IMG/VR virus record: IMGVR_UViG_3300047384_000209
Location: 1-21,178 of that record
Direction: 5' to 3' (one strand)
From: a virus
Length of the DNA: 21,178 nt
This document shows, in pieces, positions 1-19,908 of this stretch. The notes beneath the pieces were generated by a model. It was not told where the DNA came from. It saw only the letters and a program-made list of their open reading frames with translations, and ran no database searches. How positions within the stretch are numbered: the stretch's first letter is position 1; each line of letters opens with the position of its first letter. A program made the translations under genes and the position numbers.

Positions 1-1086
1 GGTATACAATATCGTGTTGTCTTTGGTGATATTATACGAGGTGGTCGTATTATAAGATGAAAAGGTTGCGGTATGATTCGTGCCTGTAAAAGTGCTCGAT
101 GAACTTACAAAGTCTCTTAATGCAACACCGTCTGATCCCGAAACCCTAAACAGTTTTACATGATAAGGACCACTTTCATCTGTTGTTGCCTGAAAACTTA
201 TTGATTGTCCGGTGCCCTCAGTTAGAGACGTTACATTGGAAAACTGTAAAGATCCAGAAGAACTTTCATCTTGTTGACCTGATCCTGAAGAGGATGCTTC
301 CAACCTTGCCGCAAAGAGAGCATTTAGATTTCTGAAGTTAGAATATATTTCAGACCCAGTCCTACCATAATTTCTAAGAACAGAATCGTAATAGTATGAT
401 GCATTTGTACCTAAACTTAAACCGAATAAATCCGTTGAAGGATTGCCTTCGAAATTAGAAGAATTAGATGTTAAAGACCACTCTAAATTTACATAAGCAC
501 CATTACTATGATATATTATTGGATCTCCAAATACTGTCCAATCATCACTTGGTGGTAGGTATTCTTCAATGTGAAAAACTTCATTTGAGGTTAATGCTCT
601 GGAATCAAATCCGATTGCTCCACTTGATGTTTTTATCTGGAGACCATATTCGTCATTGTTTAAATTAGATGCATTATCAAGAATACCATCGACGTGACGT
701 ACTACAAAGTAATCTAAATCAACGTTCCAGTCTGCGGTGACGTAGGTATTGTTTTGGTATCCACCAGGCGCAAATCCTCTGCCTTTGAATCGAATAATGT
801 TTTCTAATGCGTCTGAAAAAGAGGATTCTAGGAAAAAGATTTCTGGACTGTAAACAGTAACGTCACCGTAAATACTATTTACGTTTTGTGAGGTATAACT
901 ACCTCCACCCACAGCAGTCGGAGATTTTACAAATATAAAATCAAAATCACTGAGAGGATAATCTAAGGTAACATAGGAAGCACGATCATGCTGAGTTACT
1001 CGATAGTTAATCAGATCGAGTGAGGAGTCGGCAATAGTAAAATTATCACCGTTTGCATTTCCTTGTATCTTTAGGCCATAAGGCAT
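1..1086 (-). CDS. YG-family tail fibre/adhesin protein, partial (3' end beyond window)
   Basis: Open frame of 362 codons from the ATG at 1086 to the left edge with no stop, so the C-terminus is missing. I read this frame by hand. It begins MPYGLKIQGNANGDNF, the same start as its three neighbours upstream in transcription. A second copy of the signature lies inside at residues 146-159 (EYGLQIKTSSGAIG), so it carries at least two 'YG' modules. Residues about 263-282 form a Ser/Gly/Gln-rich linker. After it comes a beta-rich segment (from about residue 283, 'VTSLTEGTGQSISFQATTD') resembling an Ig/fibronectin-like sandwich. The ATG overlaps the TAA of the preceding gene by one base (TAATG), so translation is probably coupled. 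Seen: modules, linker and overlap. Inferred: a distal host-recognition or decorating tail protein. The exact function is not recognised. Confidence 0.8.
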   Translation of the reverse strand, partial: MPYGLKIQGNANGDNFTIADSSLDLINYRVTQHDRASYVTLDYPLSDFDFIFVKSPTAVGGGSYTSQNVNSIYGDVTVYSPEIFFLESSFSDALENIIRFKGRGFAPGGYQNNTYVTADWNVDLDYFVVRHVDGILDNASNLNNDEYGLQIKTSSGAIGFDSRALTSNEVFHIEEYLPPSDDWTVFGDPIIYHSNGAYVNLEWSLTSNSSNFEGNPSTDLFGLSLGTNASYYYDSVLRNYGRTGSEIYSNFRNLNALFAARLEASSSGSGQQDESSSGSLQFSNVTSLTEGTGQSISFQATTDESGPYHVKLFRVSGSDGVALRDFVSSSSTFTGTNHTATFSSYNTTTSYNITKDNTILYT

Positions 1087-2599: not shown

Positions 2600-2896
2600 T
2601 CACCCAGACCTCAGTACGAGATATCGAAATGTATGAGGTTCTGAACTATTACTGTTAGACAGAGTAATTTGATCAGTTCCCTTAACATATTTTCCAAATA
2701 AAAATGCCGTATTTTGATCTGCCTTAAAAAGAAAAACACTCCACTGATCAGTATTCCTCATACCAGGGATACTAATAACTTGAGAACCATCTGCAGGGAG
2801 AGTTATAATGTCTGAAGCAATCAAAGCAACAAGATCACTATTTGCTCCAACCAATAAAGTCTCATTGTCATTATATATCTCTAAACCATAATCCAT
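2600..2896 (-). CDS. Single-module YG-family tail protein (98 aa)
   Basis: A 98-residue protein beginning MDYGLEIYNDNETLLVG and ending PHTFRYLVLRSG. It is the shortest and probably the minimal form of the YG module: signature, a hydrophobic strand pair around 'LVALIASDIITL', 'SQVISIPGM' and a final beta strand. The ATG overlaps the TAA of the 1057-residue fibre gene by one base (TAATG), which suggests translational coupling to that fibre. The start is fixed by this overlap and by the YG signature standing at residues 3-4 as in its paralogues. The family is not firmly identified; the call rests on similarity to the three neighbours and on context. Confidence 0.8.
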   Translation of the reverse strand: MDYGLEIYNDNETLLVGANSDLVALIASDIITLPADGSQVISIPGMRNTDQWSVFLFKADQNTAFLFGKYVKGTDQITLSNSNSSEPHTFRYLVLRSG

Positions 2897-5800
2897 TATA
2901 GTTTACCTAGTTTGACTCTCAGAACTCCTGCCCCACTATCACTAGCAGAGTATACTTCTATTTTTTCTGAAGTCATTACAATACGTTCCCCTTGGGCATT
3001 GGTATTAACATCAATATCATTCCAATTTGGGTTCACCGTGAGGCCTTGTATCTGGACCTTAGTCGCATCGATCGTTCCCGTTTGAATATAACTACCATCA
3101 ATTATGGTGTTACCGGATTCGTCTTGGGTCAATGCACCTTCACTGTTGGTGAACGTTACAACACCATCAAACGAGTAGTTTGCGAATGCTGGACTGAACT
3201 GTAGTGCATTATTAGCAACGGTTGCCTCTCCGGTTCCAGTTCCACCGGACATTTCTTCCATTGCTTGCCATCGAACTGCCCATAGGTTACCACTAATGTC
3301 TGCATCCCCTTGACGATAATATGGAGTCTCACTCCACTTTGGATTTAATCCAGAGAATCCACCATTGGGGTTACCTCCACCAAAGAATATGTATTTTGCA
3401 GAATAAGTAGTAGTCCCGTCTGCACCCATAACAGGTGTATCGGCGGGAGCATTAACACTTACCCCTTGGAAATACAAATACCCACTTGATTGTCTTGGAG
3501 TAGCAGATCCACTCGGATCTGGACTAACACCATCTGTCGATACAATGACGGCAGTAGACCAAGACAGAGAAGCATCTTCTCCAACCAGTCCTCTATTAGT
3601 AGCAGTAGCACGACACATCCACAATGCATCACCGTCCTCATTAGACGGTTGCATTGATTCGGACCATCCAATATTCGCAGAATCTAAATCAATGTTTGTA
3701 GGTGAACTAGAAACCTCAATACGATCGTTGGTGAAACTGTACAGTAGAGTACTAGGTGGTGCTGGTACTGGACTAGAGTCTGCTGGTGCTCTTGTATAAA
3801 TCTGTGCGGAGAATGTCGAGTAACCATCTTCACCGTTGTTATGATCTAGGTATGGGTCTGACCACGTACTGCCCACATCAACATCATCGTCTCCATCGAT
3901 CGCAAAGGTCTGCTCTACTGCCCAGATCTTACCTTCACCATCTGGGATTTCTGCAACAGTGTCGTACCAGCCATCTGGTGGGATTAATGAGTTCGCAGGA
4001 ATAGTTAGTTGAGTCTCACCATCTGGTAGTGTTATGTTTGCCGCATTTGCTTGTGCTTCAGTTTTTGTTTTAGCAGTCGAAGCAAAATTAACCATACCAC
4101 CCGTCGGACTCGTTGGTCCATTTGCAGCGGTAGATCTTTGAACAATAACTGCTCTGAACGTGGATCGACCATCACGACCTGCACCACCTGCAGTAGTTTC
4201 ATCTGGTGAAGACCAAGCAATATCGTCATCGATGATTACAGGATCTGGATCACCTTCCTTGCTTGGTTTGGTTGATGCAACACCCGAAGACACGAATAGT
4301 TTATGGTCTGCCGATGGTTGATCTGGTATTGTTCTTGACCAACCACTAGGCACTAATAAAGTCGAATCACTGAAGTCGAAATTGCCATCAGTCGGTGTAT
4401 CTGGAGTAGGATTTGCGTCTGTAGGCACATGCCATTGGTATACATTTATCTGTAAGAAACTATACCCGTCTTGTGAGTCGGTTGCAAAGTTTAGGATTCT
4501 TTTTGGTGCACTAAACGTCAATGTATTGTCAACACCAATAGCACCAACTATACTAGCAGTAGTTGTAGTCTCCCACAAGTCCATTCTGTTGGTTAGGTCT
4601 AACGGTGGTATCTCTTCGTACCAATCTGGTGCACCTTGAATTTTTCCACCTTCTTTAACAAATCCATCGTTCGTGAAACTATAAACGACATTGTTATTGT
4701 CATCGATTGCTGTAGGTGTACTGTTGCTTCTGGTGTATAAAGATTTTTTGTACGTCGATATGCTTTGCTGAATGCCTAAAGTAGGAGTGCTCCATCCATC
4801 ATCCGGAACATAACTCGTACCAGTATCTCCTAGTGTGCTGAATACGTATGTAGATGACCATAGATCACCTTCACCATCTGGGATGCCTGCGTACCATACT
4901 CCTTGAGTACCACTTACATCTGGTAATGGTCCCAATGCAGCAGGATTACCATTTGCGTCTGTAGGACCAAATACTTCAGTACCAAAATTAAAGTAACCAC
5001 CATCTGGTTTATATGGTCGATCCAAATCTTCTCCTGCAACATAATCTGCTGGACGTGGTACCTTTCGATACACTACCTTTTGGAATAGAGACTTACCAGG
5101 GTCACCGTTCAGTCCGGTTGACGTTTTAATAGGTTGACCCCAATCGATGGTAGTATCGATGGTTTCACCATCTGCCAAACCATTTGTCGTTGCGATACCC
5201 GATGCAACGTATAGATCACCCGCCTGTGTTTCGACCGAAGGTGGGACAGAATACCAACCAGTAGGTACAACGAATACGTCTGCCGCAGTAGGGTCAAAAT
5301 TGAATGATCCACCGGAAGGTTTTACTACGGTTTCATCGGTATCAAATCGACGGTATACGGTTAACTGAGCATATAACTCACCATTGTTTTGATCTACAAT
5401 ACCGGAAGATAGTTCTGCTGGGACTGACCAATCTTCTGCTTCGATAACATTGGTATTGGCATTGTCGTCAACAAAAGTATAGTTACTGATCCAAAGTTTA
5501 GCACTGCCCGATGGAACTTCTTCTGTCCAAGTCTTATCCAACGGACTTGCATCTGCTTTTGTGGTTGGTACAGTTAGGGTGCCAGTGTCGAAATCAAACG
5601 TACCTCCATGAGGAGTGTCTGGTTGAGTCGAACTTCTGGTATAGATTGTAGCAGGGAATGGTGTTCTGGATGGACCTGAACCACCATCACCTAATTCGTC
5701 GTATCGAGCAAGACGTACCCACTCATTACCATGAGAGAAATATGCGGCACCGTTATCATGGGTATGCGCAAACATACCGTGATAAGTAGCAGGATCAATT

Positions 5801-6069
5801 TTATCCAGTTCTGTCTTATTTGGAAAGTGATTGCTGTATAGAATCTTACCTGTACCGATATCAAGATCATTATCTTTCAGTGCATCACGTATCTGCTGTA
5901 TAGTGAGACCACCACCGGAGTGTTGCTGAATAAGAGCAATGACTTCTTCTTGAGATAGTCCAGCAGAATCTTCTACAAAGTGAAAGTTTTCGTTGATCTT
6001 ATCGATAGCCTCATTGATCTTATCTGCTAAGTCAATGGTCTGAAGACTGTTAATATCATCGTGTGCCAT
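2896..6069 (-). CDS. Large modular tail fibre protein with about eight ~100-aa repeats (1057 aa)
   Basis: The N-terminus carries an INEAIDKINENF helix (18-29) like the 'K(I/V)N.NF' segment at the start of many marine phage tail proteins. Next is a domain at about 75-125 with TYHGMFAHTHDNGAAYFSHG, common in cyanophage fibre-like proteins. From about 137 to 966 I count eight diverged modules of about 95-115 residues, with the pattern 'Y.R....P..P.GG.F.F......VP.GW....P.....LW.S......D...DWS.P'. The last 91 residues (967-1057) begin FDGVVTFTNSEG, contain IDGSYIQTGTIDATKV and end LRVKLGKL, recalling the C-terminal region of lambda gpJ-like central fibres. The start lies 14 bases inside the upstream gene, and the stop overlaps the next ATG. 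Role: an extended fibre shaft with a host-facing or oligomerising end, by inference. No chaperone-like autocleavage motif is seen. Confidence 0.88.
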   Translation of the reverse strand: MAHDDINSLQTIDLADKINEAIDKINENFHFVEDSAGLSQEEVIALIQQHSGGGLTIQQIRDALKDNDLDIGTGKILYSNHFPNKTELDKIDPATYHGMFAHTHDNGAAYFSHGNEWVRLARYDELGDGGSGPSRTPFPATIYTRSSTQPDTPHGGTFDFDTGTLTVPTTKADASPLDKTWTEEVPSGSAKLWISNYTFVDDNANTNVIEAEDWSVPAELSSGIVDQNNGELYAQLTVYRRFDTDETVVKPSGGSFNFDPTAADVFVVPTGWYSVPPSVETQAGDLYVASGIATTNGLADGETIDTTIDWGQPIKTSTGLNGDPGKSLFQKVVYRKVPRPADYVAGEDLDRPYKPDGGYFNFGTEVFGPTDANGNPAALGPLPDVSGTQGVWYAGIPDGEGDLWSSTYVFSTLGDTGTSYVPDDGWSTPTLGIQQSISTYKKSLYTRSNSTPTAIDDNNNVVYSFTNDGFVKEGGKIQGAPDWYEEIPPLDLTNRMDLWETTTTASIVGAIGVDNTLTFSAPKRILNFATDSQDGYSFLQINVYQWHVPTDANPTPDTPTDGNFDFSDSTLLVPSGWSRTIPDQPSADHKLFVSSGVASTKPSKEGDPDPVIIDDDIAWSSPDETTAGGAGRDGRSTFRAVIVQRSTAANGPTSPTGGMVNFASTAKTKTEAQANAANITLPDGETQLTIPANSLIPPDGWYDTVAEIPDGEGKIWAVEQTFAIDGDDDVDVGSTWSDPYLDHNNGEDGYSTFSAQIYTRAPADSSPVPAPPSTLLYSFTNDRIEVSSSPTNIDLDSANIGWSESMQPSNEDGDALWMCRATATNRGLVGEDASLSWSTAVIVSTDGVSPDPSGSATPRQSSGYLYFQGVSVNAPADTPVMGADGTTTYSAKYIFFGGGNPNGGFSGLNPKWSETPYYRQGDADISGNLWAVRWQAMEEMSGGTGTGEATVANNALQFSPAFANYSFDGVVTFTNSEGALTQDESGNTIIDGSYIQTGTIDATKVQIQGLTVNPNWNDIDVNTNAQGERIVMTSEKIEVYSASDSGAGVLRVKLGKL
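2899..3171 (-). other. Shared FDGVVTFTN...LGKL C-terminal region (1057-aa fibre copy)
   Basis: The last 91 residues begin FDGVVTFTNSEGALTQ, include DGSYIQTGTIDATKV and end VLRVKLGKL. They correspond to the last 92 residues of the 671-residue protein. The '(I/E).(D/N)G..I.(T/A)' segment followed by a '(R)V.LGKL' strand is like the extreme C-terminal part of lambda gpJ-type fibres, which I state from memory. Confidence 0.7.
3172..5661 (-). repeat. Eight diverged protein modules within the 1057-aa fibre
   Basis: The translated modules start at about residues 137, 233, 329, 441, 538, 638, 753 and 856. Recurrent anchors are an opening 'Y.R/Y.Q' strand, 'P.GG.F.F', 'VP.GW' or 'GW/DWYEEIP', 'LW/LY.(A/S)S' and a closing 'W(S/G).P'. 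Conservation is at protein level; no long identical DNA repeats were noticed, so the array is old. Modules D and H depart most from the pattern, and their boundaries are approximate. Confidence 0.7.
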
Positions 6070-6295
6070 TATTATCCTCTACTAAACGAAAGAGTAAACT
6101 CTTTATCTCATCAATGTCTTGTTTCAGGTTACTCACCTCTTCAGTCAATGATTCAATTTTGTGCTTTTCTCTCTGCCTTGTCTCTTTTAGTTTCCTTGCT
6201 TGTACAATCTCGTTCTTATTCGTGTTCAAGATTGTGCCTGTTTTCTTGTCCCGTACTAGGTTATTATGTCCCTGTACCTTTTGGTATTGTTCCAT
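6056..6295 (-). CDS. Small conserved coiled-coil protein (79 aa)
   Basis: It starts MEQYQKVQGHNNLVRDKKTG, and the segment GHNNLVRDKKTGTILNTN (9-26) followed by a charged helix matches a family I recall from T4-like marine phages, where it stays a hypothetical protein. Residues about 34-72 (EKHKIESLTEEVSNLK then DIDEIKSLLFRL) have the heptad pattern of a coiled coil. No membrane segment or Cys is seen. The stop is 14 bases inside the 1057-residue fibre gene, and the start is 3 bases after the tandem TAA TAG ending the DUF4815-type gene. Shine-Dalgarno complementarity is weak, so it probably relies on coupling. A role as assembly factor or small virion protein is possible but unproven. Confidence 0.82.
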   Translation of the reverse strand: MEQYQKVQGHNNLVRDKKTGTILNTNKNEIVQARKLKETRQREKHKIESLTEEVSNLKQDIDEIKSLLFRLVEDNNGTR

Positions 6296-6298
6296 CTA

Positions 6299-9200
6299 TT
6301 ACACCAAAGCAATTGCTCGTAGATCTCGTATTGTAGGAGACTTCGATGAATTGCTTGAAGTCATAACAACCTTTACTTGGAATGCGGAGAAGGTTTCATC
6401 AACTGCATTTTCAATAACGTATTCATAGTCACGATAAATCGACCGATTGCTATCCGATATTGGATATGTTTCACGATTCATTGCAATCCATTCTGCTGTA
6501 TTTAGTCCTTCTTCAGTAAGGGATCTCTTGATGTATACCTCGAACTCTGATTCGATAGGACGGTTTGCCGCAAAGATAACCTTCAGACCATCCGACGGAT
6601 TCTCTAAAACAACCGGAACGGTTACGTGCTGTGCCGCATCTACCTTATCGATAACATTCTCAAGTGCAAGTACCGATGCTCTCTGCATGTCGATGACTGG
6701 TGATACACTGTCGTCGTTGGTGCTTAGTGAGATGTTCAGTGTCAGTGTGCGACTACCTGATTCGTTTTCGTCAGATCGAACAATCATTGGTTGGTCGTTT
6801 AAGTTCAGATCATTTAGGGTAACTGCAGATGTGACCACTGAAGAAGACTGACCAATTGGATTGCGACGATTCTGCCCATAAGACTGACCTGTCTGTGTCG
6901 ATATAGACGAAGTGATAGATGTTGCTGTCGGTGCGAGGAATTGCACTAGTGGAGTAAACTCATCGTACATTACTTGTTGAGAAGCCTTGATGTTATTACC
7001 ACCACCTGTACCTGTTGCTGTTGCTGATACAGTTGTATCAATACTGTAACCTTGCCACGTTGGGTTCTTCACAACAAACGTACCGTTGATGTTTGCTGGT
7101 AGAATACCACTTAGACTATTAGTGAGTCCACTGATAGTGACACTGTCACCTGCAGAGAAACCATGTCCTTCATGGTGGATCTTAATGTCTGACGAACCAG
7201 AAGTGGTCTCGATAGGATTATTTCCTAGAGTCACCTTCGGTAATGTTGTATTAGTTAGTTTGACTGTTACATCATTACTCGTATTAAACTTGGCACGATA
7301 TAAATTGAACATTAGATCCTTAGTTTGATCTGGTGTCCATGTAGATCCGTTCTGTGACAAGAACAAAGACCCTAGTGTTGGTTGCTTGGCAACCTTAGCA
7401 TCTGTCGAACCAAGAACAAAGTCATATGTCTCTGCGACATATACATTGTAGTCTATTGATTCAGCAAGCAGTACTATAGCATACTCTTCACCAGAAGTCA
7501 AATAAACTGGTTCATCGAACTCGATTGATGTTGGTGCCTCAAGTACACTACTCATCTGCTCTGGATCGGATGGTAGGTTAATATCTGCTGGATCAGTGAA
7601 CTTCACAGAGCCTGGTAGGATACGACCTGTTGGAATGCCATTTTCCACTGGACGGATTTGCACTTGCATTGGAATTGTGCTATCCTTAGTCTTTACGTAT
7701 ACGTCGACTTTCGATAAGAACACTCCGTTCGGGTATTCTACACGATCAACACGGAATGTCTGTGCTAAAGGATCTTCATCTTCTATTATAGTAGTGATGA
7801 CTCGGGTTGAACGAATAGTGCGTTGAATTGTCTCGATTGTACCCACTGAAGTATAACTTGAACGACTAGACGTGACGGAGTTGTCGTCATCATTCTTTGA
7901 GATGTCTAGTAGTTTGAATTCTTGCGTACCCGTACGGAACTGAATCTCAGACGTGTTAGGAATAAAGAAGTTACCCGTTAGTTCACCCTTCGCATCTGTC
8001 ACAAGATCAGTTGATCCACGTGGGTGACTTGTTGCGTCGGAGAATTCACTGCCTACCTCAGTTGGATTGTCAGAGAATTGAGTGAATGGTTCTTGACGTA
8101 CCCACTCCGATACTGACTTGTTTCCAAAATAAGGGAACATACGAGTGTTTGGCCGCAGACCCTTGACAGAGAATGAGACCTCACGAGATCGCATGAACGG
8201 AATGATTTCAATATCGACAACACGTTGTCCTACAAACTCTTGAATGGTACGAGTTGTTGTCGTTGTTACTATGCGTCCACGTTCACGTGCACGTTCTGAC
8301 GATAGGTCGAGTGTCTGACGTCGTACAGTTGTCTGTATGATGTCTGGTAGACTACGACTCTCTACCCACTCATCGGAAGCCGGTGACAGTACCATATATC
8401 CTGTTTGAGTAATCACTGCAAATGGATTGATGTTCAGTGCCGATGTTGCCAACTTCTGCTCAATCAGTGTCTCGTGTTCGAATGGTAGAGTAACCAAATC
8501 ACCTTTTTTTAGATCAAACTGAGTAGGGTCTAGTTGTAGTCGTACCGACTGTTCACGGAATGATGGTTTTAGTTCACCTGCAAATGTCTCGATCGATGCA
8601 CGATAATCATCTGCAAAAACGTCAGAAAAACTAAATCCACTGAAGTTGTCCGCAATGAATCCGGTCTTGGTTCTTGGTAAACCAGCATCGTCAAGTACCA
8701 GAATCGAGTTAGTGTCTTGCTCAAGTAGACTAAGTGTAGTTAATTCGAACAGAGTGTCGACACGTTCTTCGAGTGCCGCAATGTCTTTCATTGTGAATCG
8801 TTTGTTCGGAATGTAGTTGACTCGCACATCGTCACGTGAGAATGTATATGCACCAATCTCTACGTTATAAAGTGGTAGAGTACCTGCTGGAAGAATTGGT
8901 GCCTTTGGTGTTGATGACGGTTGACCCTGAATCAACGTAACTTCACCGATACCGATTGTATTCTCACCTGTGACAATGTTTGCCACAAGAGTATCAATTC
9001 TTGGACGGTGATACTGTAGGTTTTCGATAGTTATCGCAGAATTATTTTGAGGCAATGTAAGTGAACTAAATCCAGCATCAGAAGTTTTGGTTGGACGGAA
9101 GTCCAGTACACTACTTAGCTGTACTGTCTTACCTGACGCAGTCGTATACGAAGGTACCTCATTATATGCAACCAGAGAGTTGTCACTGTTCTTATATGAA

Positions 9201-11350
9201 CTTGCCGCAAAGAACACTCCGTCTGTTGAGTGGACATAGTGAGTGAAGGTTACGGAGATGTTGGTCACATCTTCTGGTAAACTTGATGTTGCTGTTCGTT
9301 GAATAGAAACAAAGTCATAGAAGTTGTCACTCTGACCACCATTCATGCTGTACATGAAGGTAGCATCTTGAACCTCTTCGTCTGTCGTATAAGAGACAGA
9401 CTTTAGTTCTACACCATCAACCTGATCTAGTTGATAGTACTTACCGTCATCAACAGTTACTTGCTTAACCGCAAAGAATTCTCTATCATTGTTTGGTTGA
9501 GAGTTTACAGAGTCGTATGGTCCTACGATATAGACCTCACCGTTCCATTCGATGGATGCTCCTTCAGACAGATCATACCAGTACCAATCATCCGGAGTTC
9601 TTTTCTGTATAGTGCCGTCCAAGTAGAACAACCAACGATCACGATCTTCGTTATAAAAGAAGTAGTTGTTGGTTACACCATTCGGTACATAAGCAGGAGA
9701 TAATGTAGTCTCCGTACGAGTGCCCACAGATAGATCAACTGTAGTTTCTGTCAGTACCTTTGTCTTGATACGTTGACCGTCGAGAGGTGCATATCGAACT
9801 AGAGTGTAAGAACCACTCAATCCACTGTATGTACCATCTGAAGTGGTCACGTCTAAAATACCACTATCGTCTGATAGTATCCACTGACCAAATTCACTGC
9901 CTGTTCGGTTGATCTGACCATTAGTATCTGCAGTGACGTTCTCGATAATACGAGCAGTGTAACTAACCTCTTGAATGCTGTCCTGTACTGGAGTAGGTTC
10001 TGCTAAAGGAAACAGTAGGTTGCTGTTTGTTGTCTCTTGCAGTGCGGCCGTCTTAATATCAATATCAACATCTGTACCTACTAATTTGGTTGCGGCACTA
10101 AATGCTTTGTTAGTAAGCATCTGCACGTCAAATAGATATGCACGGAAACCTGAACCGTAACGATCGACACCTCTTAGTGTCGCAGAACCTAAAGTACCAT
10201 CATCACCTACGACATCAACAGATACCATTGTGGTTGCACCACTAAAGGTGGATGTATCTTCAATCTCTACCCAACTACCGACACCACCAATGATGGACTC
10301 AGTGTTTGCTTCTGCTGGATCTCGTGCTTTAACGATATCGACGTTAGATCGACCGACCTCTAGTCGGTATCCATCGACGTATGCAACACCCTCAGACACA
10401 TCTAAACTTAAATTGTCACCGTCTTCTTCGACGACGACTTTGAATTCTTGTGCGACGTAATCACCCGACTCTTCTTTGGTGCGTACCGCAAGCAGATCGT
10501 TGATTACATTGTATGCGTCCGTGGTCTTTACTTCACGTGTGATCTTACCGTTAACAATACGGCAAACCCATACAAAGTTATCTGTAGACCCTTCCTCTGG
10601 ACGAATACTTGGAGTTAGTTTGATTTTGTATCGATGTGCGCCTGGTGACGTACGGTTAGGTACATCTCCTTGGTTGTCATACAAGTTAGGGTCTTCACCC
10701 TCTGTGACAATAGACTCTTCGATCAAGAAACCTAGATCGACCGTAGGAGTAGAACTGTACTTGTCAAGAAATACCTGCGACTGTTCAACGTGAACGAAGT
10801 GCCCCTGAACAAAGAATTCACCTTCTGCGAAGTAAGCACGTGTGCCACGACCAGCTGGTTCGATGCCGTTCTCTGGTTGAGCAACAACCATGCCCGATAC
10901 ACCACCGTTTAGATAGGTGATGACATCTCCTTTCTTGACACGAGCAGGTTCTTCTGTGTTAGTAGATGCTAACGTATCGGTGTATCGAATGTATAAAGTA
11001 GTTGGGTCACCATTCTCTGCTGATACGACCTCAGTTACGACAAAGTTTAAACCTTCTTGGTTTGTGAAGGTGACTTCTGTGACATTGCTAGGCACAACAC
11101 TTGAATCAGACAGACGAATGTACTCTAACGAATTATCGATAGTCGACCCGCCTGGTTTAACTAGAGCACCTTCACGGAATATGTTACGACCGAAACGAGC
11201 AATCTCCTCTTGGATGATTGTCTGTGCTTCGTTTAGTTCTCTTGCCTGTAGTGCACGACCTGAGTTAAATAGAACACGATAATAGTTATCACCGTCCTCA
11301 TAAAAATCACGGTATGTTTCTCTAAAGGTTTTACTTGTAAAATCTGACAT
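6299..11350 (-). CDS. Giant DUF4815-type baseplate/tail structural protein (1683 aa)
   Basis: The N-terminus (TFRETYRDFYEDGDNYYRV, then ALQARELNEAQTIIQEEIARF around 34-54) and VAYVDGYRLEVG near 323-333 are hallmarks of the DUF4815 structural family. Further conserved blocks are VLDFRPTKT (~749), RFTMKDIAALEERVDTL (~852), VVDIEIIPFMRSREV (~1045) with LRPNTRMFPYFG (~1066), DPLAQTFRVD (~1194) and the terminus FQVKVVMTSSNSSK...IRDLRAIALV. Large proteins like this are abundant virion components of T4-like marine phages. A DUF4815 assignment beyond the N-terminal half is less certain. I chose the ATG at 11350 over a GTG one codon earlier, because AGGA lies six bases before that ATG and overlaps the gp8 stop. 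It follows gp8 directly, where T4 carries genes 9 and 10, so a peripheral baseplate or fibre-attachment role is plausible. Confidence 0.9.
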   Translation of the reverse strand: MSDFTSKTFRETYRDFYEDGDNYYRVLFNSGRALQARELNEAQTIIQEEIARFGRNIFREGALVKPGGSTIDNSLEYIRLSDSSVVPSNVTEVTFTNQEGLNFVVTEVVSAENGDPTTLYIRYTDTLASTNTEEPARVKKGDVITYLNGGVSGMVVAQPENGIEPAGRGTRAYFAEGEFFVQGHFVHVEQSQVFLDKYSSTPTVDLGFLIEESIVTEGEDPNLYDNQGDVPNRTSPGAHRYKIKLTPSIRPEEGSTDNFVWVCRIVNGKITREVKTTDAYNVINDLLAVRTKEESGDYVAQEFKVVVEEDGDNLSLDVSEGVAYVDGYRLEVGRSNVDIVKARDPAEANTESIIGGVGSWVEIEDTSTFSGATTMVSVDVVGDDGTLGSATLRGVDRYGSGFRAYLFDVQMLTNKAFSAATKLVGTDVDIDIKTAALQETTNSNLLFPLAEPTPVQDSIQEVSYTARIIENVTADTNGQINRTGSEFGQWILSDDSGILDVTTSDGTYSGLSGSYTLVRYAPLDGQRIKTKVLTETTVDLSVGTRTETTLSPAYVPNGVTNNYFFYNEDRDRWLFYLDGTIQKRTPDDWYWYDLSEGASIEWNGEVYIVGPYDSVNSQPNNDREFFAVKQVTVDDGKYYQLDQVDGVELKSVSYTTDEEVQDATFMYSMNGGQSDNFYDFVSIQRTATSSLPEDVTNISVTFTHYVHSTDGVFFAASSYKNSDNSLVAYNEVPSYTTASGKTVQLSSVLDFRPTKTSDAGFSSLTLPQNNSAITIENLQYHRPRIDTLVANIVTGENTIGIGEVTLIQGQPSSTPKAPILPAGTLPLYNVEIGAYTFSRDDVRVNYIPNKRFTMKDIAALEERVDTLFELTTLSLLEQDTNSILVLDDAGLPRTKTGFIADNFSGFSFSDVFADDYRASIETFAGELKPSFREQSVRLQLDPTQFDLKKGDLVTLPFEHETLIEQKLATSALNINPFAVITQTGYMVLSPASDEWVESRSLPDIIQTTVRRQTLDLSSERARERGRIVTTTTTRTIQEFVGQRVVDIEIIPFMRSREVSFSVKGLRPNTRMFPYFGNKSVSEWVRQEPFTQFSDNPTEVGSEFSDATSHPRGSTDLVTDAKGELTGNFFIPNTSEIQFRTGTQEFKLLDISKNDDDNSVTSSRSSYTSVGTIETIQRTIRSTRVITTIIEDEDPLAQTFRVDRVEYPNGVFLSKVDVYVKTKDSTIPMQVQIRPVENGIPTGRILPGSVKFTDPADINLPSDPEQMSSVLEAPTSIEFDEPVYLTSGEEYAIVLLAESIDYNVYVAETYDFVLGSTDAKVAKQPTLGSLFLSQNGSTWTPDQTKDLMFNLYRAKFNTSNDVTVKLTNTTLPKVTLGNNPIETTSGSSDIKIHHEGHGFSAGDSVTISGLTNSLSGILPANINGTFVVKNPTWQGYSIDTTVSATATGTGGGNNIKASQQVMYDEFTPLVQFLAPTATSITSSISTQTGQSYGQNRRNPIGQSSSVVTSAVTLNDLNLNDQPMIVRSDENESGSRTLTLNISLSTNDDSVSPVIDMQRASVLALENVIDKVDAAQHVTVPVVLENPSDGLKVIFAANRPIESEFEVYIKRSLTEEGLNTAEWIAMNRETYPISDSNRSIYRDYEYVIENAVDETFSAFQVKVVMTSSNSSKSPTIRDLRAIALV

Positions 11351-11358
11351 CACCTATC

Positions 11359-12708
11359 CTATATTGTAATGACAACTTTAATGTCTTCCTGCTGCTCGGC
11401 ATCCCTACGAATACGGGAACGGTTCTCGATGTAAAGTACATCACCACTGTGTCTATCTATTTCATACTTATCAGTAAATACAGAGAAAGAAGACGACGTT
11501 GTTCCGTCAGTAACGGCCTCATTTGAATCGAAAGGTATAAATCCAGTTGATTCGTTTTGGTGATAGAACACGAACTCATCAACAGACTCATTAACGTATG
11601 CACGTGCACCACTGTTTTCTTGATAGATTACGTCTCCAGACTTATAAGGAGATGAACTACTTAGAGTCAGTGATGACATGACCTTACCGGACACTTGAGT
11701 ATATGGTTGACCTTCTGGAGTCAGTGGGTTCTTGATAACACCGATCTGTCGAAATGTGTTTTCAACGATGAAGGTGTTGCCTTCTCGACCGTCTGGTTTG
11801 ATGTTCAGTAGCACTGAACTTGTTTTTAAATCATCTACTGGATCAGCACCTAGTCCTGACGGTGGAGTGATCACGGCACGAACAACACACGGTTCGGTGT
11901 TAGCACCTTCAATCTTAAAGGTTGCTTCTGTGTATCCTGCACCGAAGTCAATCATGCGGACACCGACGACAGATCCGTTATATACGATCACTTCTGCCGT
12001 AGCTGTAGTTGTACCATCACCTTTGACTTCAATTGTAGTGCTTTCTTGTGTATATCCAGCACCACCCGATATAACCTCACCACGAAGAATCTCACCACCG
12101 ACTGCGGCATTCATTACGTTCAATTGTAGATCTTCGATCCCGTCTGCGTTACACTTAGAGGTAGGTCCGGTTAGACCCACTGGGATGTGGTTGGTTGATA
12201 GGTATTGATAGATGTTCTGTGGTGTCAGTGCAAATAGGAACTTCCAAACGTAGTTGTCTGCTGTCCTAAACGGTTTCTTGTAGTCAACGTTTAGTTCGCA
12301 GTAGTTTGGTTCGACTGTCGATGGGATCGTTTGACCATCGTATCGAGTTCCTTGCTCAAGGCATAGATATACCTCTTTCGCACTGTTCATCACGAAAAAG
12401 TTTGTTGCTTCGTCTGCATCGACGTTATCTGACCATGCGTCATAGATATCATTCGCATTCCAGTTAACTCGGGGTGCGACAAAGATTGCACCTTCAACCT
12501 TCTTAATAGACTGAAGGTTGTGTCTGAATTCTCGTTCTTCGAATGAACCATCAATAGGAGTATACGGATGATCCACGTCATCCCCCGACGTTGGGAATAC
12601 ATCTGACTTACCAATGCCGATGTAATACTCATTACTAGAGTTGATGACATCCTCAAGAAATTGTCGAGCCAGAGTTCGACTCAATGTTTGTCTGACTATT
12701 GCTGGCAT
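11359..12708 (-). CDS. gp8: Baseplate wedge subunit, gp8-like (449 aa)
   Basis: A homologue of T4 gp8, one of the wedge proteins that make up the contractile baseplate. Diagnostic segments are WNANDIYDAWSD (83-94), NFFVMNSAKEVYLCLEQG (103-120), VEPNYCEL (132-139) and DNYVWKFLFALTPQNIYQYL (151-170) followed by HIPVG, matching the 'YVMN..YKVYICLDNG...GYVWKYLF...P.DI' pattern of the family. A mid-protein segment (about 212-266) holds two GAGYT repeats (217-221 and 257-261) typical of marine T4-like structural proteins. The C-terminus (SGDVLYIENRSRIRRDAEQQEDIKVVI, shown in parts at 421-447) is also conserved in those phages. At 449 residues it is longer than T4 gp8 (334). TAGGA lies about 7 bases before the ATG. 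It sits in the second-largest gap context, with a candidate late promoter just upstream. Confidence 0.92.
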   Translation of the reverse strand: MPAIVRQTLSRTLARQFLEDVINSSNEYYIGIGKSDVFPTSGDDVDHPYTPIDGSFEEREFRHNLQSIKKVEGAIFVAPRVNWNANDIYDAWSDNVDADEATNFFVMNSAKEVYLCLEQGTRYDGQTIPSTVEPNYCELNVDYKKPFRTADNYVWKFLFALTPQNIYQYLSTNHIPVGLTGPTSKCNADGIEDLQLNVMNAAVGGEILRGEVISGGAGYTQESTTIEVKGDGTTTATAEVIVYNGSVVGVRMIDFGAGYTEATFKIEGANTEPCVVRAVITPPSGLGADPVDDLKTSSVLLNIKPDGREGNTFIVENTFRQIGVIKNPLTPEGQPYTQVSGKVMSSLTLSSSSPYKSGDVIYQENSGARAYVNESVDEFVFYHQNESTGFIPFDSNEAVTDGTTSSSFSVFTDKYEIDRHSGDVLYIENRSRIRRDAEQQEDIKVVITI

Positions 12709-12732
12709 TATGGGTTCCTATTAAAAAGTCCT

Positions 12733-12740
12733 AACTTATA
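12733..12740 (-). promoter_or_regulatory. Degenerate late promoter-like box before gp8
   Basis: Within the 45-base gap ahead of gp8 the minus strand reads TATATATAAGTTAG. Aligned as TATAAGTT it matches six of eight positions of TATAAATA. It is placed 25 bases upstream of the gp8 ATG, a spacing like that of the perfect box upstream of the 258-residue gene. An AT-rich gap can produce such a match by chance, so this is only a candidate. Confidence 0.3.
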
Positions 12741-12758
12741 TATAGTTGATTCACTATA
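12741..12758. repeat. Short inverted repeat in the gap before gp8
   Basis: TATAGT and ACTATA form a perfect six-base stem around a six-base loop. It spans the TAG stop of the 671-residue gene. The stem is all A/T except for one base pair and is not directly followed by a T tract; a TTTTT run comes 13 bases later after a weaker four-base stem (AAGT-TAGG-ACTT, 12726-12737). It could be a weak terminator or an RNA-processing hairpin ahead of gp8. Confidence 0.35.
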
Positions 12759-14769
12759 CTGCAGGTAATTTACCAAGAATTACTCTTGGATTTCCACTTG
12801 AATCGTTAATTGTTATGGTATCGGGATCTAATACCATCGATGATAGATCATTTTCGACATCACTGGTACTGTTCTGCACTGCACCTAAACTTAGTGAATT
12901 AGCACTAATACGACCACCGTTAATCTCAGTTGATCCACCCAAAGCATAGACAGTACGGTTATTATCTGTGTTCCCGTCCGATAGAATTACATCTGAGTCA
13001 CCACTATTGGTAAATGTTACGATGCCGTCAAATGATACAACCTTCTGTGCTTGAGTGCCAAAATCTTCCGTTGTTGGTGCAACACCAGAGGTATCGATGA
13101 AAACAAGATCAGAAAAATACCATGTTGTTGAAGTGGTGTTTGCGTTGATAGTTGGGGCATCCATCGACCATCCATTAGGTGGTGCGACACTTAGACCATT
13201 CCAAGTTAGTGTTGCTTTTGCTGGGGCTTCTCCTGCAGTTGCGGTTTCAGAATACATCCTGATACTATAATATCTAGGTGGTGGATCTGGTTGATCTGGT
13301 TGATCTGGTTGATCGGGTGCATCTGCGACGAATTGCACATATGTAACAGTATCGGCAAGAAGAGTATTTGGAAGGTGACTGTCCTGAGTTGGTTTAGGTG
13401 CTGTCCACTCATAGAAGGTAACAAACTTCTTCGTTCCCAAAGTCAGTGAAATCTGATTCATAGCACTTGGATTTTGAACCGAAGAATATACAGGGACTAC
13501 ACCTTGTGCTGGTGGTGCGTTCGGAGTCTCTCCTACGAACTTAACCCATGTTAAACCGCTCCTCAAGTTAGAGAGATTAGAGTTCGGTTTGTTCTCTATG
13601 CCGTTCCATTCGTAGTACAATACATATTCCTGACCAGTCTGTCGAACAGTATTTTTACCATCACCACTAGAATCATTTGCATAGATTACTGTGACACCTT
13701 CTGAAGTACCCGCATCCCCGTCCGTGATGGTAAGGTCTGTTTCTCCGTTTTCGTCAGTAATTGTAACCGTAGTCACTCCGGTATTTTCGTCATACTCCAC
13801 AGCCGTTATGGTTGGAGACACAGCATTTTCTCCACCAACACCAACAATCTGTGCATCACCAAACTCAGCACCATTGATAAGGTCTGTATCTCCACGTCCA
13901 ACGGCAGACCCCTGAATGATCCAAAGGTATTCTCCGTTTGTGATTGACGGAGCACTCTGAGTCCATCCTTTAAAATCAGCACCGGATTCTGCAGTCAACA
14001 AACCAGTAGAAAAAGTGTGCTTGAAACTACCCGTCGGGTCTGCTGGAGCACTTGACGCATCACTGTTTTTGTTGTATAGTTGTACAACTGCAGTGTTGTA
14101 TCCGTCTAGTCCTGTTCCTGATAGAAGAGTAGGGGCACTGAACTCATCACCATAGATTACATCTGTGCCACTCGTGTTTGAAGCAGTTGCTTGCTTGACC
14201 CAAATATATTGGCCTGGTACGATTGCAGGTAGGTCTTGAGACCATCCATCTAAATCACCCGTAACTTGACCAACTGTAGTCGGAGAAAGTGTACCAGTTT
14301 CAAAGTCATAACTAAATGGTCCCGTCGGTACTTTAGTTGGAGCATTGACTGCCCCATTTGCCGCAGTACCTTTAGGTCTGAATATGAAGACCGTCGCAAC
14401 ATTCGTTGCTGGATCTGGTTGTGTCGGTTGAAAACCAACACGTGAAAGAACAACAGGACCGTTCCAATCATCTTGATTAAACGTTGCGGTAGATCCTACT
14501 GGTCCTTCTAATGTGATCGACACCATCCACAATGCTTCCGAAAAGGTAAGATTGTCGGGACTGGTCGACCAGTTAGTAAAAGCAGTGGAGACACTGGCAG
14601 TCAGTACTCCACTTAAAAAGTCGTATTCAAAGTTCCCCTGTGGTACAGTTGGTTCACTAGCATCTGCACTAGTCTTATAAAAGTACTGCAGTGTTACTCG
14701 TGACGTGCCGTCTTGTAGATCTACAAGAGTGACAAAGTCAGAAGCATATCGTGTCCATAATACCGACAT
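12754..14769 (-). CDS. Modular tail fibre/adhesin-like protein (671 aa)
   Basis: It has three full copies (about 24-112, 122-225, 226-315) and a shorter fourth (about 500-579) of the module that also builds the 1057-residue fibre: 'P.G.F.YDF.TG.L.......GW....P....G.Y.W........D.......FS.P'. Between them lies SPTITAVEYDENTGVTTVTI (318-337), and then an internal duplication of about 60 residues (357-417 and 422-485), each half containing 'YEW' and ending 'F V..(T/A)P'. A DQP linker (485-495) follows. The last 92 residues start FDGIVTFTNSGD, include EINGGRISANSL and end NPRVILGKLPAV, matching the C-terminus of the 1057-residue fibre in length and motifs. A GAGGG Shine-Dalgarno tract lies upstream in a 17-base gap. 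Inferred: a fibre or baseplate-tip protein with a central-fibre (gpJ-like) C-terminal region. Confidence 0.87.
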   Translation of the reverse strand: MSVLWTRYASDFVTLVDLQDGTSRVTLQYFYKTSADASEPTVPQGNFEYDFLSGVLTASVSTAFTNWSTSPDNLTFSEALWMVSITLEGPVGSTATFNQDDWNGPVVLSRVGFQPTQPDPATNVATVFIFRPKGTAANGAVNAPTKVPTGPFSYDFETGTLSPTTVGQVTGDLDGWSQDLPAIVPGQYIWVKQATASNTSGTDVIYGDEFSAPTLLSGTGLDGYNTAVVQLYNKNSDASSAPADPTGSFKHTFSTGLLTAESGADFKGWTQSAPSITNGEYLWIIQGSAVGRGDTDLINGAEFGDAQIVGVGGENAVSPTITAVEYDENTGVTTVTITDENGETDLTITDGDAGTSEGVTVIYANDSSGDGKNTVRQTGQEYVLYYEWNGIENKPNSNLSNLRSGLTWVKFVGETPNAPPAQGVVPVYSSVQNPSAMNQISLTLGTKKFVTFYEWTAPKPTQDSHLPNTLLADTVTYVQFVADAPDQPDQPDQPDPPPRYYSIRMYSETATAGEAPAKATLTWNGLSVAPPNGWSMDAPTINANTTSTTWYFSDLVFIDTSGVAPTTEDFGTQAQKVVSFDGIVTFTNSGDSDVILSDGNTDNNRTVYALGGSTEINGGRISANSLSLGAVQNSTSDVENDLSSMVLDPDTITINDSSGNPRVILGKLPAV
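12757..13032 (-). other. Shared FDGIVTFTN...LGKL C-terminal region (671-aa protein copy)
   Basis: Residues 580-671 begin FDGIVTFTNSGDSDVI, include EINGGRISANSLSLGA and end NPRVILGKLPAV. It pairs with the C-terminus of the 1057-residue fibre 10 kb away. In both proteins it directly follows a copy of the repeated beta module. Confidence 0.7.
13284..13310 (-). repeat. 9-bp triplicate encoding a DQP linker
   Basis: Three identical tandem copies of a nine-base unit (GATCTGGTT on the plus strand) followed by a partial, mutated fourth. They encode Asp-Gln-Pro repeats at residues about 486-494 of the 671-residue protein, just before its last beta module. Exact identity suggests recent expansion. Confidence 0.9.
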
Positions 14770-14786
14770 GGGGAACCCTCAAATAA

Positions 14787-15953
14787 TTAAGACGTTGACT
14801 TAGTTACAGTAACATCACAACGGATGCTGATTGGTGCAGACGTGTCTGGAACAACTTCTGGTCCTGCAGTAATTGCCGCAAAGTTGTTGTTATTACCATC
14901 GGCAACAACACCACCAGAAAGTACTACAGTTGGATCATTTACTGCAGCGACTCGTACCTGAGAACCATCTCCGTATTCCCAACTGTACTTGATCTCGAAA
15001 CCACCGACACCATCGGTAAGCACGTTGTCACCTTCACCCGTTGCGTCTGTAACAACCGCAGTTAGTGTTACTGGATCACCTGAGTTGTTACGGAATGTGG
15101 TTGGTCCACTTGGAATGATATCTACCTTGATAGCACCACGACCAGCAAGCAGTTTAGCAACACTTACTACGTCTTGACCCTGATCACCAGCAACCTTCAT
15201 AGTGTATGAGAATGCATCGTTTCCTACGTTAGTCGGAGCAATCTTGATCTGAGATCCTGTTGTCCAACCTTCGGTAGGAAGTGAGGTTGTTACGAAAGTA
15301 TCTGACTGAGATAGTCGATATCCAGCAATTTGTCCTGAACCAGTACCTACAGTTGCGGCACTGAATGCTCCACCGTTTGTTTTGGTAGTGATTGCAACGT
15401 TAGTGGCAGTACCAGTAACAATGAACTCGACGATTACATCGTCTTGATCAGATGCCAATACACCGTCTGCGTCTGCAAGGAATGTGTGGTCTGACTGGAT
15501 AAGATTGATGACCGTACTGTCCGCACCGTCACGTACAATAGTAACACTTAGTTCTAGGTCGATAGTGCCTGTGAACTTACCTGTGTTATATGCAACAGTA
15601 ACGATCACTGTACCACTACGCTTATACTCTTGGGCATCTGGTGCCACAATCGCATCACATGTGATAGTGCCGTCTGCACCTTCTACGAAAGTGAAACCTG
15701 TTGCTTGTTGGATGTCTTGAATAACAAACTCACCGTCACCCGCAGTTGCGTTTCCTGAGTATGCTAGTTCTGTTCCTCCAACGTATGCTTGCACGTTAGT
15801 TTGAAAATCTGTACGTGCAGCGTCTCCAACTTGACCTGTAGGACTACTGATAAAAGTATGGTTCGCATTGGTCAAGAAAGCAGATACCGCACTTTGACCG
15901 TCGATTACGTCGGTTAAGGTAACGGCCGCCGTGGCAGTTCTTACGATTGCCAT
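14787..15953 (-). CDS. Three-domain beta-rich tail protein, Ig-like (388 aa)
   Basis: Two tandem, related domains can be read from aligned openings: DGQSAVSAFLTNANHTFISS (18-37) and DGADSTVINLIQSDHTFLAD (142-161). Each is about 125 residues and rich in Thr/Val strands. A third domain (about 276-388, TTFRNNSGDPVTLTAVVTD, then YSWEYGDGSQ) looks Ig-like and resembles the C-terminal domain of the 258-residue neighbour upstream. Such repeats are common in lambda gpJ-like central fibres and in virion decorations. There is no enzyme motif or signal peptide. The ATG lies two bases after the preceding TAA, and AAGAGG stands upstream. Inferred: a structural adhesin component acting with its neighbours. 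The precise position in the particle is unknown. Confidence 0.85.
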   Translation of the reverse strand: MAIVRTATAAVTLTDVIDGQSAVSAFLTNANHTFISSPTGQVGDAARTDFQTNVQAYVGGTELAYSGNATAGDGEFVIQDIQQATGFTFVEGADGTITCDAIVAPDAQEYKRSGTVIVTVAYNTGKFTGTIDLELSVTIVRDGADSTVINLIQSDHTFLADADGVLASDQDDVIVEFIVTGTATNVAITTKTNGGAFSAATVGTGSGQIAGYRLSQSDTFVTTSLPTEGWTTGSQIKIAPTNVGNDAFSYTMKVAGDQGQDVVSVAKLLAGRGAIKVDIIPSGPTTFRNNSGDPVTLTAVVTDATGEGDNVLTDGVGGFEIKYSWEYGDGSQVRVAAVNDPTVVLSGGVVADGNNNNFAAITAGPEVVPDTSAPISIRCDVTVTKSTS

Positions 15954-15955
15954 GA

Positions 15956-16732
15956 TTAACCCTCTTCTTTATCGTTAATAGTTAATTGAATTGGCAGTGT
16001 CCCAGAATTAGGAACTGCCTTTGCTTCGATGAAAATAGACTTCAGTTCACCATTACTAAACTCTTGCGCAGTTGATTCAGCCGGTATGCCAAACCCAATT
16101 GGACAAGTGCCGTCGTCTCCTACAGTAACAATAGTTCCGTCTATATGTGACACGTAACGTGTCGTCTTATTAATGCACACAGATTTACCACCCGATGTCC
16201 ATTGATAACCATAATCACCGTATTGGTTTTCATCAATACCCAACCCGTTGATTGAAATACGTGCTTGCAATTCGGTTTCACCCGAATCGTTTAAAAATAC
16301 TGTTCCGTTCACTGCTGTGATTGCGACGTTAAGATCCTCGTATCCACGATCGTAGATAAGTGCTGGAGCAGTCCACTCTTCTGGTAGAATAGTCTTTTGA
16401 CTAACACCATCTGCCTTTGGTACAGAAGTCTGAATCAGAAAGACGTATCTTCCTTCTGTTGGAATGCTTAACTTCCATCCCTGTAGAGTTGGATCTTCTG
16501 GCATCGTAATGTCGTTACCAGAAAAATCATAAATTGTAGGCAAAGAAATATCTTCCGACTCTGGCAGAGTCGGGTCATTAAATGCTTTGTAAAGTTCTAC
16601 TCTCAGACCACCATTAGCAGAAAGACGATACAGTTCTTCGAAGTTATCGTTAACCTTCTCTGCTGTTGTTCGAAGTGTATCACCAGTTCCGTCGTTACCT
16701 GCACCACCAGTGTTAATAATTTGTCTTGGCAT
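15956..16732 (-). CDS. Tail protein with NDGTGDTLR N-terminus, repeat module and Ig-like domain (258 aa)
   Basis: It starts MPRQIINTGGAGNDGTGDTL and continues TTAEKVNDNFEELYRL. This is a widespread N-terminal attachment segment of tail and fibre proteins in marine myoviruses ('NDGTGD.LR.A..K.N.NF.ELY'). Residues about 44-130 are one copy of the fibre module shared with the 671- and 1057-residue proteins (YDFSGNDITMPEDPTLQGW, then EEWTAPALIYDRG). Residues about 133-253 form an Ig-like domain (VNGTVFLNDSGETELQARIS, then YGYQWTSGGKSVCINKT) similar to the third domain of the next gene. A perfect TATAAATA box lies 28 bases upstream of the ATG, with a GAGAG Shine-Dalgarno tract between. Inferred: an adaptor anchoring fibre components to the baseplate. 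Confidence 0.87.
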   Translation of the reverse strand: MPRQIINTGGAGNDGTGDTLRTTAEKVNDNFEELYRLSANGGLRVELYKAFNDPTLPESEDISLPTIYDFSGNDITMPEDPTLQGWKLSIPTEGRYVFLIQTSVPKADGVSQKTILPEEWTAPALIYDRGYEDLNVAITAVNGTVFLNDSGETELQARISINGLGIDENQYGDYGYQWTSGGKSVCINKTTRYVSHIDGTIVTVGDDGTCPIGFGIPAESTAQEFSNGELKSIFIEAKAVPNSGTLPIQLTINDKEEG

Positions 16733-16759
16733 GAAAATTTTCTCTCAATTCAATGTCAG

Positions 16760-18933: not shown

Positions 18934-19908
18934 TTATTCTCCTTGCCTTATAATGCTATAGTATTTTGATAGATCGTCAGTCCCGTAGACCCCACGTTCT
19001 TCACCTCGTAGATAAACTCTTCCGTCCGTTCCAATAACTTGAGTCGGCACTTCTCCGGTAGAGATCTCTTCACTGTATACAATGGTATCGTTCCATGTTA
19101 GTAGAAGAGATACAGGTGCATCAACATTTTCAATATACTCTGACCACTCGTATCTCGGACTCGACCCTGACCAATGTGGTTGGTTATCTGGAAGATCCGG
19201 TACAGGTTCTCCGACATATGGTACAAAATTATACCCACCGTTAACCAACTTGATCGGGTTAAGTAGGAAATACGTTAGTGCTTTTATCTTACCTTGACGA
19301 CCCGAATAAGCATTCAGTGCATCGGCAAGATCATATTGTTGTGCGATATCATATAGTGCTGTCACCGACAACGTCTCGATTGCTAGATCTTTTAGCAGTT
19401 TAATATTCTCAAACGGATACGCATATAGGGCACCGTACGCAACAGTTCCGTCGGACATCGTAGTTTCTTCTTTAGTGTTGAAGACAACATGCGTATCGGT
19501 TATCGATACCAATTTTTCTGGAGTGTCACCATTTGCGGATGTGTAGAATGTGAAACTAGGAGAGTGTTCTTGTGACCAGTCTTGATATAATACGTTATCC
19601 TCTAACGGTGAGTTTACGATAGACTCGAAATATAGATTATCACCAACGATGACATTCTCATCAATCGGATCTGTAGGTTCGAGAGGTTCTGGTTCTGCCT
19701 CTGGTTCCGGTTCCGGTTCTGGTTCCGGCTCTGGTTCAGGTTCTGGTTCAGGTTCAGGTTCAGGTTCTGGAGTTGGGGTTACACTACCGACTTCCTCACG
19801 GATGAAGTATAAGGTGTCCTCATCCTTTTCGGATAGAGCATCGTACTGCTCCTGTGTGCCGATCCAAACCTCGACTGCCTCACCTGTATTCTTGTCTATA
19901 ATACTCAT
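18934..19908 (-). CDS. Tail-associated protein with Pro-Glu repeat linker (324 aa)
   Basis: The N-terminal 36 residues (VEVWIGTQEQYDALSEKDED, then TLYFI) match a short 'IWVGTQ..YDAL..KD.DTLYFI' domain found at the start of many phage tail or adhesin proteins. Next is a Thr-Pro then Pro-Glu repeat at residues about 47-73, an extended, highly acidic rod. The C-terminal body (about 80-324) is unrecognised. It includes a possible helical stretch (LSVTALYDIAQQYDLADALN, roughly 180-200) and ends with IGTDGRVYLRGEERGVYG. The ATG forms a four-base ATGA overlap with the preceding stop, so translation is probably coupled. Inferred: a virion protein that holds a head-binding domain and a distal domain apart through a stiff, charged linker. 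The encoding DNA is a hexanucleotide-like repeat. Confidence 0.85.
   Translation of the reverse strand: MSIIDKNTGEAVEVWIGTQEQYDALSEKDEDTLYFIREEVGSVTPTPEPEPEPEPEPEPEPEPEPEPEPEAEPEPLEPTDPIDENVIVGDNLYFESIVNSPLEDNVLYQDWSQEHSPSFTFYTSANGDTPEKLVSITDTHVVFNTKEETTMSDGTVAYGALYAYPFENIKLLKDLAIETLSVTALYDIAQQYDLADALNAYSGRQGKIKALTYFLLNPIKLVNGGYNFVPYVGEPVPDLPDNQPHWSGSSPRYEWSEYIENVDAPVSLLLTWNDTIVYSEEISTGEVPTQVIGTDGRVYLRGEERGVYGTDDLSKYYSIIRQGE
19690..19770 (-). repeat. Hexanucleotide-type repeat encoding the Pro-Glu linker
   Basis: About thirteen near-copies of a six-base unit (GAACCN on the coding strand, two codons each) encode the alternating Pro-Glu rod at residues 47-73 of the 324-residue protein. Third positions vary between A, C, T and G, so the copies are not perfect, but the unit is in frame and gain or loss would change only linker length. 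One copy reads Ala in place of Pro near the end (EAEPEP). Confidence 0.9.

Follow-up and report, generated by a model that had tools for sequence, protein, structure and literature searches.

The window analyzed here is the whole 21,178-bp virus record IMGVR_UViG_3300047384_000209 (positions 1–21,178), which carries T4-like phage baseplate and fibre genes on the minus strand, the strand of every window gene and domain located below. The landmarks of the cluster were a gp8-type wedge protein, a DUF4815 protein, a baseplate wedge protein and a gp9/10-type N terminus. The gene for the gp8-type baseplate wedge protein (11359–12708) was assigned by profile matches, that for the DUF4815 protein (6299–11353) by Pfam, and a third gene (14787–15953) encodes a 388-aa protein with an Ig-like type of domain. 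Phage C48C1 (Kyanoviridae) was found to have the identical order of gp9-type gene, gp8, DUF4815 and fibre gene. Further along the window, a 324-aa protein (18934–19908) begins with a Phage_tail_C N-terminal motif that is followed by a long PEPEPE tract.

The subject of the study is a small β-rich module of ~95 residues (about 85–115), with an almost invariant Trp and the consensus P.GG.Y.F...L....GW....P....LW.....A........I....WS.P, copies of which were assigned to three genes of the cluster, termed A, B and C. Gene A (2896–6069; 1057 aa, A1057) encodes a fibre-like protein with a baseplate-type N-terminal region, an array of eight modules and a C terminus of the tip attachment protein J type. 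The N-terminal region (5680–6069), recognizable by the motifs DKINENF ... YHGMFAH.H, is common to many marine phage fibre genes that do not carry the module. The modules then follow one another, nearly linker-free, over some 840 residues (3145–5658 in all). A1 (5380–5658) was assigned by the A-set and distant HMMs described below, and HMMs also placed A2 (5095–5379), A3 (4759–5094), A4 (4465–4758), A5 (4168–4464), A6 (3823–4167) and A7 (3502–3822), while the divergent last copy, A8 (3145–3489), was assigned by hhalign. The C-terminal domain of A (2899–3174) resembles the end of the central straight fibre of protein J and is homologous, by sequence comparison, to the C-terminal domain of B; using the 'A6' profile, this A/B C terminus matched PDB 9ze4 (tip attachment protein J, central straight fibre domain) with E = 1.4e-5.

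Gene B (12754–14769; 671 aa, B671) has three N-terminal modules, other repeat domains, a weak fourth module and a J-type C terminus. Modules B1 (14431–14706), B2 (14101–14400) and B3 (13822–14100) together span 13822–14706, and B1 and B3 were assigned by HMMs. They are followed by a linker (13282–13821) in which a different repeat occurs twice (..YYEW..KFVG / ..FYEW..QFVA), as read from the sequence, then by B4 (13006–13281) and by the homologue of the A C-terminal domain (12757–13032). The YYEW...KFVG repeat was present in two copies in the window and in relatives G002 and G003, and in four copies between B3 and B4 in relative G001; the comparison took in gene B of L029. A 9-nt tandem tract at 13279–13321 encodes DQPDQPDQP directly before B4.

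Gene C (15956–16732; 258 aa, C258) combines a T4 gp9/10-like N terminus (16610–16732; PF07880, 7e-8; phrog_677, 5.5e-12) with a single module, C1 (16334–16615), assigned by HMMs, and an uncharacterised C terminus. The gp9/10 N terminus is a feature shared with the T4 baseplate–fibre connector gp9, but only residues 1–41 match and the remainder consists of one module and an unmatched domain. The full-length gp9 architecture is absent from C258, the match ending at residue 41 of 258.

The relationship between the modules of the three genes was studied with profile HMMs. An earlier note, based on the letters of the window alone, had proposed one repeat module distributed over three fibre genes in about eight, three to four and one copies. 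The proposed copies were cut out, eight from A, four from B and one from C, and used in jackknife HMMs. The A-only HMM matched B671 at E = 7.2e-15, where three individual copies reached about 1e-4 or below, and the B1–B3 HMM matched A1057 at 1.5e-9 and C258 at 4.3e-5; the other window proteins gave only noise-level scores with these HMMs. In a control with 1000 shuffles per target, the A-only HMM scored 45.6 bits on B671 against a shuffled maximum of 7.8, and the B1–B3 HMM scored 27.8 bits on A1057 and 13.5 bits on C258 (shuffled maxima 14.1 and 7.5, respectively). C258 was not recovered by the A-only HMM, its 2.0 bits lying under the shuffled maximum, and gene C is thus joined to A and B via B and via modules from outside the window.

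A distant HMM was prepared from 238 modules of unrelated phages, with sequence of the window lineage excluded; since a gut-phage match to B671 served as the seed of this set and the profile used for cleaning it included window modules, its independence is one of sequence and is incomplete in selection. The distant HMM recovered A1–A7 (iE 2e-14 to 6e-4), B1–B3 (4e-11 to 1e-19) and C1 (9e-10), together with B4 at a weak 7e-4. It gave zero matches to the DUF4815, gp8 and 388-aa proteins, and the earlier observation that the gp8 and DUF4815-type genes lack the module was therefore confirmed. A8 was missed by the distant HMM. In profile–profile comparison with hhalign, A8 was related to A1–A7 with a probability of 93.5% and to the distant set with 84%, and it is credible as a divergent eighth copy. 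The corresponding values for B4 were only 35–37%, and its assignment as a module copy is doubtful. The proposed numbers of copies consequently agree with the seven, four and one found by the distant HMM, with A8 added by hhalign and B4 weak.

An alternative to common descent is convergent composition, whereby short aromatic, Pro and Gly patterns would recur in β-rich phage proteins without homology. The low pairwise identity, only about 20–40% within A, would be in keeping with such convergence, but the HMM scores far exceed those of the 1000 shuffles and the modules are recovered independently by the profile from distant phages. Pure compositional similarity was ruled out by the shuffle control, and convergence is regarded as extremely improbable. 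The cross-gene comparisons show the modules of A, B and C, at the level of sequence, to be homologous and members of one family.

The predicted fold was explored with AlphaFold2 models of A1–A2 and of C258. The A1–A2 model had a mean pLDDT of 83, and strands were predicted at residues 6–13, 24–26, 31–33, 58–65, 73–75 and 85–88 of the first module. In the C258 model, the module part reached pLDDT 80–93 with an A1-like strand order and the remainder was poorly modelled. Both models matched tip attachment protein J A0A6J5KN60 (5e-10 for A1–A2 and 4e-5 for C258), the Siphoviridae tail protein A0A8S5LN68 (5e-9 and 1e-4) and the predicted viral protein A0A5Q2W7H3 (8e-6 and 3e-5). The shared strand order and top viral matches agree with a common fold in genes A and C, an agreement that is only partly independent as the two structure jobs had alignment rows in common. 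Among PDB structures, no fold match for the predicted module was found by Foldseek (none with E < 0.26) or with a VIA Z above 2.4.

The module HMM matched bacteriophage T5 pb4 at about residues 503–548, marginally (E = 0.05) in a PDB-wide search and at 1e-6 to 3e-4 in a search space of only three T5 proteins. Residues 484–547 of pb4 comprise a linker and the first decoration domain of the spike, the numbers in the published legend being partly inconsistent (PMC10038345). Going by this sequence match, the nearest solved relative of the module is probably the decoration domain of the T5 fibre pb4. Likeness to protein J is seen in the A and B C-terminal domain, which matches the J central straight fibre (9ze4), and in the module models, which match predicted J proteins; the match of the module HMM to pb4 is weak. 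Unlike J and pb4, however, A and B sit in a T4-like baseplate cluster and the N-terminal region of A differs; moreover, pb4 has one decoration between spike strands, whereas A has a string of eight modules. Strings of FNIII or Ig-like domains in phage tails are similar in that small β domains are strung between tail base and spike, and FNIII domains are present in T5 pb3/pb4 (PMC10038345). The module differs from these in lacking an FN3 or Ig family match, FN3 being absent from Pfam scans of A, B, C and relatives, and its PDB comparison gave no clear fold match.

The history of the array was followed in orthologous A genes, which were collected via their N terminus. This gave 71 N-terminal matches without any module and a smaller group with the array. 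Trees of the array-bearing group placed the modules in position-specific clades, with those of A, B and C in separate groups. Across several phages, the best match in another phage occupied the same array position for 65 of 66 modules, and for all 66 a match in another phage was better than any within the same protein. The exception was module 7 of L138 (L138:5989–9327), which lies nearest to the position-4 modules of other phages and, judged by its sequence, is likely to represent a module replacement, either within or between arrays. The set of eight was found in nearly every complete relative, even where identity between A genes is down to about 40%, and identity among the A modules of the window is about 20–41%.

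Copy number is able to change, though rarely, as relative G003 has five modules and is missing A5–A7. In the tree, A5 is the sister of A2, indicating an old duplication. A late gain of A5 was considered and rejected; since A2 modules from every phage, including G003, group together beside A5, a loss of A5–A7 in G003 is the simplest account. At the DNA level, gene A holds only two short repeat pairs (30–36 nt, 80–81%), which argues against any recent duplication. The A array is, by these sequence comparisons, an old and near-fixed set of eight. It resembles the BACON tandem repeats of crAss-like tail proteins, where the cluster 1 domains form one clade per position and keep a stable order (PMC6949934), in being a tail-protein array of tandem domains with position-specific clades. 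Unlike BACON, the module is a different sequence family that is not confined to gut phages, and no match to the BACON model was obtained in Pfam scans of A, B, C and relatives. Two irregular A genes were also observed. That of L135 is split into two overlapping frames (L135:5992–6735 and 6698–9280; 247 and 860 aa), by a sequencing error, a frameshift or a disruption of the gene, and in that of G003 (L035:9634–12615) the J-like strand region is followed by > 200 C-terminal residues of quite another kind.

The module was also traced beyond the window lineage. The first distant relatives were found in Vibrio phage D456-type phages, which have a 2662-aa protein with five to six copies, and in a human faecal phage contig, and the module was absent from the fibre proteins of C48C1 and from the cyanophage fibre regions compared. 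With all 26 module types in one profile, divergence was too great for pattern searching of both collections, and the closer gut-phage modules were used successfully instead. Scans with these gut modules returned 77 viral loci and 10 bacterial-genome loci, the latter including Prevotella, Novosphingobium, Massilia, Sphingorhabdus, Aquabacterium and Thermaurantiacus. In viral contigs and prophages a single tail protein had 1–11 copies and collagen-like linkers were frequent, and a combined profile gave about 450 copies in 131 proteins, an upper figure because some loci overlap. The crAss-like cr52_1 was matched weakly by tblastn (E = 0.6), and a structure search and the 'it' profile likewise pointed to it. 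There is no model for the module in Pfam or NCBIfam, PHROG 23593 overlaps it in part, and no description was found in the open-access literature. The module is a phage tail domain that is widespread but has yet to be catalogued; a family model is missing, and a proper one would allow annotation of many 'hypothetical' fibre genes as well as of tail proteins in prophages.

Recent tandem duplication was evident in other module-carrying phages, with pairs up to 97–100% identical, and in the Novosphingobium locus L042 module pairs alternate at 92–97% identity. The earlier note had suggested a lego-like fibre shaft, growing by duplication and spreading by recombination, with copy number setting fibre length. 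On this view the modules would be interchangeable length units, gained and lost in tandem and copied between the three genes. Such a shaft would account for the different copy numbers of the genes, the five modules of G003, the near-identical tandem copies in other phages and the affinity of L138 module 7 to position 4. However, the eight positions are kept across phages whose A genes have diverged to about 40% identity, the A, B and C modules fall into separate position-specific groups, and the window shows no recent duplicates, identity within A being 20–41%. Expansion by duplication is therefore not supported for the window lineage, with its fixed eight and position clades; recent duplication stood for other phages, where near-identical pairs occur. 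As these phages expand the module by recent duplication, the lego idea suits them better than the window phage, for which it is thought unlikely.

The exchange of modules in fibres is a familiar theme. Comparison of the window with G003 showed the stretch from the wedge protein through DUF4815 to be 69–98% identical (gp8 95%, DUF4815 92%), gene A 41%, and the genes beyond A 41–58% or without a match. This collapse of identity from gene A onwards indicates that the A end of the cluster was replaced or is evolving far faster. The drop in identity to G003 (L035) is sharp, with DUF4815 at 92% and gene A at 41%, and it falls at window 6069–6299, where the fibre cassette starts and a border of recombination is likely.

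A smaller exchange was apparent in gene B, where tree, identity and codon comparisons set module B2 apart. B2 (B residues 121–218) was about 60% identical to every relative, with flanking values of 87–92% for B1 and 87–93% for B3, and the edges of the divergence coincide with module borders. At unchanged residues, codon identity between the window and relative G1 was 46% in B2 and 88–89% in B1/B3 (Fisher p = 1.4e-9). Among themselves, G1–G3 were 85–87% identical in B2, and a milder synonymous dip was present there too. A burst of mutation in B2 could in principle give such a pattern, but the synonymous divergence and the borders at module edges speak against it, and a donor allele apparently imported as a single module explains the sequences best. 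Further partner switches were seen in the B4 region and in the last 50 residues of B. G001 and L131 carry an inserted Ig-like domain between A7 and A8, and this domain is related to the 388-aa protein of the window (25% over 216 aa, E = 1e-7, for L131). Recombination, as put forward before, is supported: modules and whole domains behave as its units, as in the apparent replacement of B2 and the insertion between A7 and A8. No sign was seen that modules had lately passed from one of the three genes to another.

Given the module homology, the position locking, the module-sized exchange in B and the J-type C terminus that emerge from these comparisons, we consider it probable that A and B are J-ended fibres docked at the baseplate by their N termini, and that an old, locked array changes mainly by recombination of whole units. 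The module is used in three baseplate-region proteins, with eight in A, three in B and one in the gp9-like C. As A and B carry the J central-fibre C-terminal domain, they are most likely trimeric fibres, of which the N terminus would dock on the baseplate, the modules would form arms or a shaft bearing surface-binding or spacer patches, and the J-type spike would close the end. The A array would have arisen through duplication well before the sampled phages diverged, each position evolving on its own ever since, the probable reason being that neighbours and contacts differ from module to module. Current change would then consist mainly of recombination between relatives, in which modules, domains or the A cassette are swapped in their entirety, altering surface properties and keeping the architecture.

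Alternatively, the modules could serve chiefly as decoration domains, binding carbohydrates or surfaces and raising avidity, instead of forming a structural shaft, a reading that deserves serious weight while falling somewhat short of an even chance. The probable kinship to pb4 484–547, a decoration domain plus linker on a separate spike, would favour it (PMC10038345), surface patches would fit both the position-specific divergence and the allele exchange, and the BACON arrays of crAssphage have been suggested to bind hosts (PMC6949934). However, a carbohydrate-binding family or fold match was not found, and the nearly linker-free run of modules in A suits a shaft as well. A more speculative and only tentative reading is that the surface is coded by position: the eight modules would keep their order since each recognises or touches a different thing, and single modules would be swapped between relatives as cassettes, at their borders, with the architecture unchanged. 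A T4-like phage would in that case change one contact at a time. Exchange of fibre modules is already known. So are position-locked tandem arrays in phage tails, from BACON (PMC6949934); what is added here is a widespread module family, common in phage tails, uncatalogued in Pfam and NCBIfam and partially covered by PHROG, together with a clear case of single-module exchange. Locked arrays here, recently duplicated arrays elsewhere and an exchange with sharp borders offer a clean natural case for the question of spacers or binding patches.

Downstream of gene A, at window 1–1086, lies the window's copy of a giant repeat protein, which the contig end cuts before the repeat part is reached. The giant proteins at this place in relatives are 1110 to 1467 aa or more and consist mostly of degenerate 'YTGNYSRDFTGNYARTRVSAYTR' repeats (L036:1808–6370; L034:8458–12807 and 13422–16751; L035:1–3845 and 4404–8807).
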